Origin: Paracoccaceae bacterium
GTDB lineage: Bacteria > Pseudomonadota > Alphaproteobacteria > Rhodobacterales > Rhodobacteraceae
Assembly (NCBI GenBank): GCA_029243395.1
Contig: JAQWSE010000005.1
Span: forward strand, 124,001-188,000
Length of the DNA stretch: 64,000 nt
Direction: 5' to 3'
Shown in pieces: positions 54,785-59,263 of this stretch (its first letter is position 1; each line of letters starts with the position of its first letter). The notes under the pieces are model-generated. The model made no database searches, was not told the DNA's origin, and saw nothing but the letters and a program-made list of their open reading frames with translations. Made by a program: the position numbers and the translations under genes.

Positions 54785-55729
54785 ATGACGAAAACTGTTC
54801 TAGAAAGTTTAAATAAAACAGTAATAATTGGCCATGATGAACCATTTTGTGTAATAGGTGAAAGAATAAATCCTACCGGCAGAAAAAAATTGGCCGCCGA
54901 ACTTGAAGCAGAAATTTTTGATACAGTAAGGCATGATGCATTACATCAGGTAAGTTCAGGAGCGTGCGTGTTAGATATTAATGCTGGAGTGGTATATAAT
55001 ACTAATCCTAACCCTAACGAAACTGAACCAATCTTGATGGAAAAATTGATAACACTAGTACAAACTGTTGTGGATGTACCCCTATGTATTGACAGTTCTG
55101 TTCCCGCCGCACTAGAAGCAGGACTTAATGTAACGAAAGGGAGACCCTTATTAAACTCAGTTACAGGTGAAGAAGAGCGCTTGGAAGTGCTTCTGCCTTT
55201 AGTAAAGAAATTTAATGTGCCTGTCGTCGCAATTTCAAATGATGACACCGGCATATCAGAAGACCCTGACATACGTTTTGCAGTTGCAAAAAAGATAGTC
55301 CAACGGGCTTCTGATTTTGGCATTCCTGCAAATGACATTGTGGTTGATCCTTTGGTGATGCCCATTGGGGCAATGGCAACTGCAGGTCAACAAGTGTTTA
55401 AACTTGTTAAAAGGTTGCGAGAAGAACTGAAAGTCAATACTACATGCGGAGCTTCAAACATATCCTTTGGCTTACCCAATAGGCATACTATTAATGCCAC
55501 ATTTCTACCAATGGCAATAGCTTCTGGAATGTCCAGTGCTATTATGAATCCAACAAATCCAGATGAAATGAGCGCCATTCTAGCAGCCAATTTACTTATG
55601 AACAAAGATGCTAATGGATCAAAATGGATTAAGAACAATAGATCACTTGACCAAAAAACTGAATCAAATGGAAGTATTGGAGAAAGAAGAAGAAGAGGTG
55701 ACCGTCATCGACGGAGCAGTCCAAGATAG
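54785..55729 (+). CDS. Methyltetrahydrofolate:corrinoid methyltransferase (pterin-binding TIM barrel)
   Basis: DHPS-like TIM-barrel protein of 314 residues that moves a methyl group between methyltetrahydrofolate and a corrinoid protein. Seen: VIGERINPTGRKKLA near the N-terminus, VLDINAGVV near 60, CIDSSVPAALEAGL near 100, VDPLVMPIGA near 200 and CGASNISFGLPNRHTIN near 225, the MetH/AcsE pterin-site pattern. The C-terminus is short and arginine-rich (ERRRRGDRHRRSSPR), which looks like a real tail. Forms an operon with the RACo gene 41 nt downstream. A free-standing pterin module fits a split MetH or a methylated-amine pathway; see findings. Confidence 0.9.
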   Translation: MTKTVLESLNKTVIIGHDEPFCVIGERINPTGRKKLAAELEAEIFDTVRHDALHQVSSGACVLDINAGVVYNTNPNPNETEPILMEKLITLVQTVVDVPLCIDSSVPAALEAGLNVTKGRPLLNSVTGEEERLEVLLPLVKKFNVPVVAISNDDTGISEDPDIRFAVAKKIVQRASDFGIPANDIVVDPLVMPIGAMATAGQQVFKLVKRLREELKVNTTCGASNISFGLPNRHTINATFLPMAIASGMSSAIMNPTNPDEMSAILAANLLMNKDANGSKWIKNNRSLDQKTESNGSIGERRRRGDRHRRSSPR

Positions 55730-55770
55730 CGTTTAACAACTTCTTTCAAGATTTGATACCGGAGTTTATT

Positions 55771-57822
55771 GTGACAGATGGTAAAAAAAAAGAAATTCCT
55801 GAAACTCAGCAACATTTAGTTGTTTTCACCCCGTCAGGCTTGAGAGGACATGTTCCTAATGGAACAAGTATTTTAGAGGCTGCACGAAAATTTGGAGTAG
55901 ACCTGGATAGTGTGTGTGGAGGACGAGGGATTTGTTCTCGTTGCAAAGTGAAGCCAGCAATCGGAACGTTTCCAAAATTTGGGATGACCACGACTAACCA
56001 ATGTCTCAGTCCTTGGAATGATGTAGAAGAAAAAGTTAATAAAAAAAAGCTCTTTAAAAAGGGTCAGAGGCTTGGTTGCCAAACAAAAATAATTGGTGAT
56101 GTTATAGTTGATGTTCCTAGTGAGAGTCAGATCCACAAACAAATAGTCAGAAAAAGAGCTGAGGTCAGAGATGTTTTAGTTAACCCTGCTACAAAACTTT
56201 ATTATGTAGAGGTTTCTCCTCCTAATATTCATAATCCAACAGGAGACCTGCAAAGATTAAAACTTGCTCTTGAAAAACAGTGGAACATAACTGATCTTGT
56301 AATTTCTATAAACAAAATTCAGACAATTCAGACCTTACTACGTAAGGGAAATTGGGCAGTAACTTGCGCTATATTCAGCCAAAAAAATTCTGCCCCTGAA
56401 ATTATAAGCATTTGGCCAGGTTTTTTTGAATCCCAAATCTATGGTTTAGCTGTGGACCTTGGATCTACAACAATAGCAGCCCATCTCTGCAATCTAAGAA
56501 CAGGAGAAGTGATATATTCCACTGGGGAAATGAATCCCCAAATTAGATTTGGAGAAGATCTGATGAGCAGGGTCAGCTATTCTATGATGAACATAGATGG
56601 AGCTGAAAATTTAAAAGTTGCAGTTCAGGAATCACTGAACGACCTCATTGAGAAAATAATCCAGGATTGCAAAATAGAAGCTAAACAACTTCTTGAAATT
56701 ACGTTAGTTTGTAATCCTGTCATGCACCATTTATTCCTTGGCATTAATCCCACAGAATTGGGACAAGCACCATTTGCACTTGCAACTTCTGAGTCACTTT
56801 ACTTAAACAGTTGGGAGGTCGGATTAACCTCCCTAGACAATTGTAAAGTTTATGTTCTCCCATGCATTGCAGGACATGTAGGGGCAGATGCCGCGGCAGT
56901 AATTCTTTCGGAGACCCCAAATACATCCAAAGAAAATGTGCTCATCATTGATGTGGGCACCAATGCTGAGCTCATATTAGGAAATGAGAAAAAAGTTTTA
57001 GCATGCTCTTCGCCTACTGGTCCAGCCTTCGAGGGAGCACAAATATCATCAGGGCAAAGAGCTGCTCCAGGGGCTATAGAAAAAGTTAGAATTAATCCTC
57101 TAACCAAAGAACCAATATTAAAGGTCATTGGTTGCGAAAGTTGGTCAAATGAACCTGAATTTTCTGAATACATTAAAATCCAGGGAATCTCTGGTATTTG
57201 TGGTTCCGGGATAATTGAGGCGGTTGCTGAAATGAGAACGGCTGGCGTATTAGACGGATCTGGCTTGATAGGATCTGAGGTAGACACCGGTTCCGTAAGA
57301 TGTATTTCAGAAAAAAGAACTAATAGTTATATCCTATATGATGGAACGAGAGAAGGTCGGGCTTTAATCAAGGTTACAAATTCTGATGTCCGAGCAATCC
57401 AATTAGCCAAGGCAGCACTTTTTGCTGGAGCTAGACTGCTAATGGATGAAATGGGGATCAAAAAAGTTGATCGAATTGTATTGGCAGGAGCATTTGGGGC
57501 TCATATTTCAACAAAACACGCTATGATTTTAGGAATGATACCAGATTGCAAGTTAGATAAAGTTACCTCTGCAGGTAATGCAGCTGGAACAGGTGCTCGA
57601 ATAGCTCTCTTAAATATTGATGCCAGAGAAGAAATTTCAAACACTGTTAAAAATATAACAAAAATAGAGACAGCTATGGAGCCTAGATTTCAAGAATATT
57701 TCGTTTCTGCTTCAGCTATACCTAATTCACTATACGAATTTGAAGAATTAAACAAAATTGTCCATTTACCTAATATAAATTTCAACAAGAAAAGGCGCTC
57801 AATTCGTAGAAAAGCAAAATAA
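55771..57822 (+). CDS. RACo-type reductive activator of corrinoid proteins (ferredoxin + ASKHA)
   Basis: Keeps cob(I)alamin methyltransferases active by ATP-driven reduction of oxidised cobalt. About 683 residues. The N-terminal 2Fe-2S ferredoxin has cysteines at about 49, 55, 58 and 78 (CGGRGICSRC, then NQC). The C-terminal ASKHA ATPase shows AVDLGSTTIAAHL and LIIDVGTNAELIL, GICGSGIIEAVAEM and VLAGAFGAHI. I chose the GTG at 55771 because GGAG lies 6 nt upstream; a TTG at 55753 is possible. Such proteins are best known from anaerobes (RACo, RamA), but relatives occur in aerobic marine alphaproteobacteria. Confidence 0.9.
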   Translation: MTDGKKKEIPETQQHLVVFTPSGLRGHVPNGTSILEAARKFGVDLDSVCGGRGICSRCKVKPAIGTFPKFGMTTTNQCLSPWNDVEEKVNKKKLFKKGQRLGCQTKIIGDVIVDVPSESQIHKQIVRKRAEVRDVLVNPATKLYYVEVSPPNIHNPTGDLQRLKLALEKQWNITDLVISINKIQTIQTLLRKGNWAVTCAIFSQKNSAPEIISIWPGFFESQIYGLAVDLGSTTIAAHLCNLRTGEVIYSTGEMNPQIRFGEDLMSRVSYSMMNIDGAENLKVAVQESLNDLIEKIIQDCKIEAKQLLEITLVCNPVMHHLFLGINPTELGQAPFALATSESLYLNSWEVGLTSLDNCKVYVLPCIAGHVGADAAAVILSETPNTSKENVLIIDVGTNAELILGNEKKVLACSSPTGPAFEGAQISSGQRAAPGAIEKVRINPLTKEPILKVIGCESWSNEPEFSEYIKIQGISGICGSGIIEAVAEMRTAGVLDGSGLIGSEVDTGSVRCISEKRTNSYILYDGTREGRALIKVTNSDVRAIQLAKAALFAGARLLMDEMGIKKVDRIVLAGAFGAHISTKHAMILGMIPDCKLDKVTSAGNAAGTGARIALLNIDAREEISNTVKNITKIETAMEPRFQEYFVSASAIPNSLYEFEELNKIVHLPNINFNKKRRSIRRKAK

Positions 57823-57924: not shown

Positions 57925-58326
57925 TTGCAACTTTTTAGACTAATATATTATTCTCAGCCATTTGGTTATGACCTCCCTATGCTAAATGGTATCTTAACTG
58001 ATGCAAAAACTTATAACCCTCCAAATAATATAACGGGCGCCCTAATATGTCGCGAGGACATATTCTTACAGCTTTTAGAAGGACCCAAGGATAGTATATT
58101 ACTGACCTATAGCAAAATATTAAATGATGATAGGCACTTAAATATAAAAGTTCTAGTAGAAGAATTTTGTGAAAACCGTATTTTTCCCAAATGGCATATG
58201 AAAGACGATCCCGCTAGAAGTTGGTTCTGGACCAAAGAACAAATACACTCCGGTATATTGCAAACCATCTCCAAGTGCGAAGTTATAGAAGCATTTGAGA
58301 AAGTAGCTCGTAGTGTTTCAGAATAA
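57925..58326 (+). CDS. Stand-alone BLUF blue-light photoreceptor
   Basis: BLUF domain binding FAD and sensing blue light, 133 residues with only a short C-terminal helix after the domain, like cyanobacterial PixD. Photocycle residues align with PixD: Y8 (FRLIYYSQ), N31, Q49 (FLQLLEG), W90 and M92 (FPKWHM). The start is TTG with GAGG 7-10 nt upstream. No output domain is attached, so it presumably acts through a partner. The neighbouring genes do not include a known PixE or PapB partner; the coiled-coil gene 208 nt downstream is a candidate by position only. Confidence 0.92.
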   Translation: MQLFRLIYYSQPFGYDLPMLNGILTDAKTYNPPNNITGALICREDIFLQLLEGPKDSILLTYSKILNDDRHLNIKVLVEEFCENRIFPKWHMKDDPARSWFWTKEQIHSGILQTISKCEVIEAFEKVARSVSE

Positions 58327-58534
58327 CTTGATTTTGAAAAAGGCATTTAAATAAATCATGGATTATTTTTGTCTTTTCTAATTCTCTAAAATTCCGGGAT
58401 TAATGGATTAAGTGAAAGTTAATTACATTATTTTATTTGTTTACCTTAGATTCTATACTTATAGTTAACTCAAGAATGTATGTTGGGAATCAAAACTAGT
58501 TTTTTAAAGATAATTAAACGTCGGAGATTGGTTA

Positions 58535-59263
58535 ATGGACAAGAAAGACGATTTGAAATCAAAAATTAAAAAGAATAGAAAAGCCATATTTGTGTTAGAT
58601 GGAAAGATAGAAGGTAATAGATCCAAGATTGAAGAACTTAGATCTGCTGCTGAGCGAGATAATGCATCAATCGCAAGGAATTATACTGCTGCATTCTACG
58701 GGAATCATCATCTGACAAATCGAAATTCAGAAGAGATATTTAAAAACAGAATTGCCATACTCAATAATATGGATGTTGAAGGAGAGGTTGAAGTTAGCTT
58801 CCGAGAAACAATGATTAATTTGGCAAATGTAGATTTCTTTACTCATAGAGCAGAAGTAAATCAAGAAGTAATCGATATAAATGAGAAGCTAACTGTCGTA
58901 AATCGGCTACTCATAGAAATTAACCAAGCAATTATGACTAGAAACGAGAAGTCTGTGAAATTCAATCGAAGAAATCTTGACACTAATAAAAGATTCTTGA
59001 ACGGTGAGTTTCACCCATCGAAGGCAACCGTTTCTGCAAACGCCAAGCGCTCAAAAGACAATGAAGAGCGCTGCGAAAAACTTTCTAAAGCTGCAGAAAA
59101 AAACAAATCAAAAATCGAAAAATTACGACAACTGGGCCAAGTTAATTCAGCTAACGTATTGAAGAATTCCATTGAAATTTCTAGGCGAAGAAGTCAAATA
59201 ACTGAAAATCAAGAAGAAGTACTTAAAGATCAAATAGATATTGCAAGTACAGTATTTAACTAA
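58535..59263 (+). CDS. Coiled-coil protein with heptad ladder of asparagines, unrecognised
   Basis: Soluble 242-residue protein without signal peptide; I do not recognise a family. It is almost all helical, charged and Asn-rich (about 10%). Asn recurs every seven residues: 109, 116, 123, 130, 137, 144 and 151 without a gap; also 57, 64, 71 and 78, then 169, 176, 190, 204, 211 and 225 in a third block with other residues at 183, 197 and 218. Between them position +4 is mostly hydrophobic (I, T, I, M, V, L, L in the central block), giving I-x-x-N heptads as in N@d layers of trimeric coiled coils. CGGAG lies before the ATG and a TATACT -10 candidate is at 58454-58459, so it probably has its own promoter. 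Confidence 0.75.
   Translation: MDKKDDLKSKIKKNRKAIFVLDGKIEGNRSKIEELRSAAERDNASIARNYTAAFYGNHHLTNRNSEEIFKNRIAILNNMDVEGEVEVSFRETMINLANVDFFTHRAEVNQEVIDINEKLTVVNRLLIEINQAIMTRNEKSVKFNRRNLDTNKRFLNGEFHPSKATVSANAKRSKDNEERCEKLSKAAEKNKSKIEKLRQLGQVNSANVLKNSIEISRRRSQITENQEEVLKDQIDIASTVFN

Follow-up and report, generated by a model that had tools for sequence, protein, structure and literature searches.

The window, a 64,000-nucleotide stretch of contig JAQWSE010000005.1 from a Paracoccaceae bacterium, carries an asparagine-ladder ORF directly downstream of a BLUF photoreceptor gene (Table 1). The ORF is a real gene. It begins with an ATG codon, is preceded by a Shine-Dalgarno-like motif, and shows a dN/dS of 0.11-0.13 in comparison to its two closest homologues within the genus. 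A scan of its flanks for promoters and terminators gave results at chance level. Further upstream, at 54785-57822, a methyltransferase-like gene of the pterin-binding type precedes a gene for a RACo-type reductive activator, which suggests a corrinoid methyl-transfer module.

Table 1. Positions of genes and predicted features in the window
Feature	Coordinates	Strand	Basis and remarks
BLUF photoreceptor gene	57925..58326	+	PF04940, E=2.8e-24; directly upstream
Shine-Dalgarno-like GGAGA	58523..58527	+	Direct sequence reading; 7 nt before ATG
Asparagine-ladder gene	58535..59263	+	ORF and homologues; 242 aa, computed pI 9.5, 27.9 kDa
Predicted helix A, residues 3-77	58541..58765	+	AlphaFold2; ladder Asn 14, 28, 49, 57, 64, 71 (consensus also 42)
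Putative belt, helix A part, residues 50-62	58682..58720	+	Conservation; N49/N57 phase shift lies here; candidate docking site
Predicted A/B turn, residues 78-83	58766..58783	+	AlphaFold2
Predicted helix B, residues 84-155	58784..58999	+	AlphaFold2; Asn 95, 109, 116, 123, 130, 137, 144, 151; antiparallel orientation probable
Putative belt, helix B part, residues 100-104 (DFFTH)	58832..58846	+	Conservation; candidate docking site
Predicted B/C turn, residues 156-165 (NGEFHPSKAT)	59000..59029	+	AlphaFold2
Predicted helix C, residues 166-241	59030..59257	+	AlphaFold2; Asn 169, 176, 190, 204, 211, 225
Putative belt, helix C part, residues 218-219 (RR)	59186..59191	+	Conservation; candidate docking site

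The asparagine ladder and its family

The original prediction described Asn recurring at seven-residue spacing, and the spacing is as claimed at residues 57, 64, 71 and 78, at residues 109, 116, 123, 130, 137, 144 and 151, and at residues 169, 176, 190, 204, 211 and 225. An extra ladder that was absent from that description lies upstream of N57 (N14, N28 and N49, with the consensus adding N42), and the phase shifts by one residue between N49 and N57. In total, 11 Asn-Asn pairs at spacing 7 were observed vs a mean of 3.27 (sd 1.61) in composition shuffles, and 11 pairs were reached in 5 of 100,000 shuffles. None of the 100,000 shuffles produced seven Asn in a row at this spacing; the longest run was six residues (33 of 100,000).

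Homologues were searched for in the genus, the family, related orders, 399 genomes across the phylum, and plasmid and viral-labelled records. The carriers comprise about 40 genomes or records, and all identified ones are Alphaproteobacteria. Within the genus, 9 of 12 genomes (including that of the window) carry the gene, as do four genomes that belong to the same family but to other genera. A different alphaproteobacterial family, f9, has it in 15 of 32 genomes. It was also recovered from 10 of 81 genomes of the order containing f109 and f240 and from 2 of 28 genomes of the order containing f19, with further copies on one Octadecabacter arcticus plasmid and one viral-labelled contig. Besides the window genome, the 399 genomes across the phylum gave only partial matches, in G1084, G795, G1065 and G876. 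As these mainly cover the C-terminal ladder and lie within long ORFs resembling YadA-type adhesins, they were judged convergent, and homology to adhesins was rejected. A phage or viral origin was also rejected; no phage match was found, and the single viral-labelled homologue adjoins a glutathione-dependent oxidoreductase gene. Pfam, NCBIfam and PHROGs returned no match to the ladder family above curated or usual thresholds. The family is unnamed in these libraries, and no description of it was found in the literature.

Among 16 homologues there are 20 invariant columns, 11 of which are Asn, and the ladder is conserved over a range of 28-92% identity. When 33 homologues including the most divergent were considered, ladder Asn were retained on average in 77% of sequences and non-Asn positions in 35%. 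Members from f240 and f19 have a weaker third ladder, and a small number of paralogue-like relatives (L040, L083-L085) have lost most Asn. Conservation of heptad Asn, on which the original prediction depended, therefore holds for most members and breaks down in the most divergent ones. Since most homologues keep the Asn and few lose them, these residues are selected in most of the family but dispensable in some relatives.

Several individual copies deserve mention. Length is kept while most Asn are lost at L040 7997-8647, L084 1743-2414 and L085 1-627. Genome G706 encodes one Asn-poor relative plus a full ladder protein elsewhere in the genome, and G1177 encodes two Asn-poor relatives. The G006 homologue (L007 1400-2181 / L043 8390-9093) has a frameshift near codon 25 that is either an assembly error or a true disruption. 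The O. arcticus protein WP_044039177.1 (hypothetical protein, pOA238_160) is a full-length family member, 35% identical to the window protein. Unlike the window gene, its gene is plasmid-borne, lies between two IS6-family transposase genes (L044 8627-11988), an arrangement pointing to mobility, and is without a BLUF neighbor.

Predicted three-helix rod and its proposed layer register

The window protein was modeled as a monomer using AlphaFold2 and an alignment of 32 homologues, from which the Octadecabacter plasmid homologue was left out. The model has a mean pLDDT of 95.1 and a pTM of 0.77 and consists of three long helices (Table 1). The same three long helices were predicted for a 26%-identical homologue, L078 (pLDDT 94.8). 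Based on these models, an architecture of one chain with three helices and two short turns is likely. The chain would fold as an up-down-up antiparallel three-helix coiled coil with helices of 72-76 residues, forming a rod ~110 angstrom in length if each residue adds 1.5 angstrom.

Short turns restrict how the helices can be paired, such that antiparallel residue sums (i+j) would have to lie near 161 for helices A and B and near 321 for helices B and C. When 784 offset pairs were scored for Asn layers spanning all three helices, the maximum of 2.77 fell at 159 and 320; the runners-up scored 2.2, 2.1 and 2.0, each one or two heptads off, and the median was 0.05. Agreement modulo seven follows from the heptads themselves, and thus the informative part is that the best heptad matches the one that the turns allow. 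At the proposed register the window protein has full Asn triads at 14/144/176, 28/130/190, 49/109/211 and 64/95/225, while layers 21/137/183 and 35/123/197 are Leu-Asn-Leu. The layers lying between Asn layers are mostly aliphatic (e.g., I18/V141/C180, I25/I133/A187 and I46/V112/V208). Homologue L033 has seven full triads in 10 layers, and WP_044039177.1 has six triads. Positions 21 and 35, where the helix A ladder lacks Asn, share layers with the corresponding vacancies of helix C (183, 197), with a chance probability of 0.067. Because the three ladders share layers, the triads could be completed without other chains.

Asn covariation within layers, calculated from few sequences, was weak for helices A and C (0.31 vs 0.18 elsewhere), neither A-B nor B-C showed any, and smoothed conservation outside of the ladder did not single out the register. 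Taken from the model and the ladder alignment together, antiparallel packing and burial of the Asn are inferred, and we regard the exact layer register as fairly probable.

A profile search of the PDB returned N@d stalks as the only structures at E<0.01 (UspA1, E=0.0007; EibD, E=0.004), which agrees with the original placement of Asn at core positions in an I-x-x-N pattern. Foldseek searches of the PDB and viral models with the window protein and a homologue gave no match at E<=0.001, and no PDB entry among the matches listed had a TM-score above 0.42. A known globular fold would have counted against the original prediction, and no significant match to one was obtained. For homologue L078, the second-ranked Foldseek match was 7zr2, an engineered spike HR1 mimic (probability 0.99, TM 0.36/0.39), and the third was 4tql, a designed three-helix bundle (probability 0.91). 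HR1 mimics have been described as single-chain antiparallel trimers in which one helix is reversed (PMC9778920). The engineered mimics (gp41, SARS-CoV-2; 7zr2) and 4tql have a helix-loop-helix-loop-helix single-chain layout in common with the ladder protein. They differ from it in being man-made, with TM-scores of 0.34-0.39 and a comparably extensive Asn ladder not established, and no homology is claimed.

N@d layers have been described in coiled coils of three parallel chains, mostly those of adhesin stalks and viral fusion proteins. The stalks of trimeric autotransporter adhesins (UspA1, 2qih; EibD, 2xzr) share I-x-x-N heptads, Asn d layers and multi-layer runs with the ladder protein. However, each stalk consists of three chains running in parallel, which are secreted and have a YadA barrel as their anchor, whereas the ladder protein would be one chain with an antiparallel helix B and without a detected head, signal or anchor, and the likeness looks convergent. 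UspA1 527-665 has been reported to contain eight N@d layers, and its d-position Asn coordinate chloride (PMC6839023). In simulations, chloride in Asn triads was unfavorable in two trimers and behaved differently in a third (PMC12933892), and so ion binding in the ladder protein must not be assumed.

No match to anchor, secretion or enzymatic families was found in Pfam, NCBIfam or PHROGs. A C-terminal YadA anchor in particular had no Pfam or NCBIfam match, and the 242 aa terminate in helix C. As judged by sequence reading, the N-terminus (MDKKDDLKSKIKKNRKAIF) is charged and without the hydrophobic stretch of an export signal. With no secretion or anchor domain found, the ladder protein is probably soluble and cytosolic, as was originally supposed.

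Gene neighborhoods and alternative explanations

The original interpretation combined N@d-type core Asn, which stand, with a one-helix homo-oligomeric scaffold or filament, which does not fit a model of three helices and two short turns with ladders in common layers. In its extended form this alternative posits a parallel homotrimer of long helices, perhaps a filament, held by intermolecular N@d triads. The best PDB profile matches, UspA1 and EibD, are indeed parallel trimers, engineered single-chain HR1 mimics tend toward trimer self-association (PMC9778920), and the two-turn model rests on a monomer prediction, which is blind to oligomers. Nevertheless, two turns were predicted in both members folded (window protein and L078), the ladders match near the offsets that the turns impose, and the vacancies shared by helices A and C would be an accident in a straight homotrimer, all of which make an extended homo-oligomer unlikely. 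The three long helices, their suitable length and a pI of 9.5 could also point to a BAR-like protein that dimerizes into a basic, membrane-curving crescent on the inner membrane. BAR domains (SNX1-SNX5, FAM92A1) and the bacterial BAR-like protein BdpA (PMC8687657) likewise have three long antiparallel helices in 200-250 aa, and some of the higher TM-scores were to BAR domains (SNX1-SNX5 8abq, 0.39/0.41; FAM92A1 8ceg, 0.38/0.42). This explanation is very unlikely, however, given that the best TM-score was 0.42 among the matches listed and thus below the 0.5 expected of a BAR fold, with E >=1. BAR, F-BAR and I-BAR profiles run on 16 members gave no match above the cut-off and nothing beyond one weak FCH match (E=0.027) in a single member. 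BdpA also has a signal peptide, whereas the ladder protein shows none.

Other explanations rely on the neighboring genes. Short BLUF proteins often act via separate partners, and the adjacency to BLUF noted in the original prediction was recovered, directly upstream and on the same strand, in 8 of 8 testable genus members but at no other fetched locus of the family. A dedicated role as light-signaling partner of the adjacent BLUF protein is quite improbable in light of those other loci, the 208 bp gap between the two genes, and the farther genus members, in which the ladder protein is about 81% conserved vs 58-62% for BLUF. In f240 and f19, the gene order is DUF1538-PII-PII-ladder in 8 of 8 homologue-bearing loci, and the second P-II-like gene lies 3-25 bp from the ladder gene. 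The DUF1538 protein UmpAB is a Na/Li/K:H antiporter (PMC5484666), and the ladder protein might accordingly act with P-II-like proteins in an accessory role, regulating a DUF1538 cation/proton antiporter. Yet DUF1538 was not found in the window genome, and an obligate partnership was for this reason rejected; most of the genus is also without it. Other genomes have DUF1538 and P-II-like genes without an adjoining ladder gene, and even an accessory role is quite improbable. A fused DUF1538 gene (UmpA-UmpB-like) with one or two P-II-like genes forms a recurrent alphaproteobacterial operon (L077-L082, L037, L086), which at L129-L132 and L134-L137 is without the ladder gene. No paper was found connecting DUF1538 with P-II.

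In f9, the ladder gene adjoins or lies near J-domain and TerB-domain genes (L032, L038, L041, L091, L092, L036, L090). Neighbors vary between lineages and point to no fixed partner, which counts against the favored explanation given below. A gene that moves between contexts is better suited to an adaptor than to a fixed pathway component, although this proves nothing.

Proposed role of the ladder protein

Taken as a whole, we favor, with some confidence, a probably cytosolic single-chain antiparallel rod with Asn register layers and a proposed adaptor function. The core would alternate aliphatic and Asn layers, the latter serving as register keys. Each buried amide would have to face amides at equal height, which would impose a unique fold and prevent mixing with other coiled coils. 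Speculatively, water or an anion (e.g., chloride) may be bound within an Asn triad, as in the N@d layers of adhesins.

Outside of the core, conservation peaks at residues 36-62 of helix A, and at the proposed register D100, F101, H104 and R219 lie at similar height. This belt near layer 57/102/218 (Y50, G56, N57, D100, H104, R218 and R219) is proposed as a docking site for a partner. The rod could then act as an adaptor or scaffold that is recruited by lineage-specific modules, namely BLUF in the genus and DUF1538/P-II in others; this adaptor role is speculative and put forward tentatively. A bolder version is a single-chain anion ladder, in which up to seven Asn triads stacked within one chain would bind chloride or another anion in the cytoplasm. 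The stability of the rod would then follow the internal anion level, and the rod would signal salt or anion conditions to its partners, speculatively the P-II-linked cation/proton antiporter in some lineages. We consider anion sensing by the ladder protein to be highly improbable, and the complete anion-ladder scheme extremely so.

If the single-chain rod is correct, the ladder protein, whose middle helix would be reversed, would represent a natural use of the layout that protein engineers adopted to mimic trimers in a single chain. It would also provide a compact natural system for testing whether helix register and orientation are dictated by buried Asn triads, and a testbed for anion retention by triads whose amides come from antiparallel helices.
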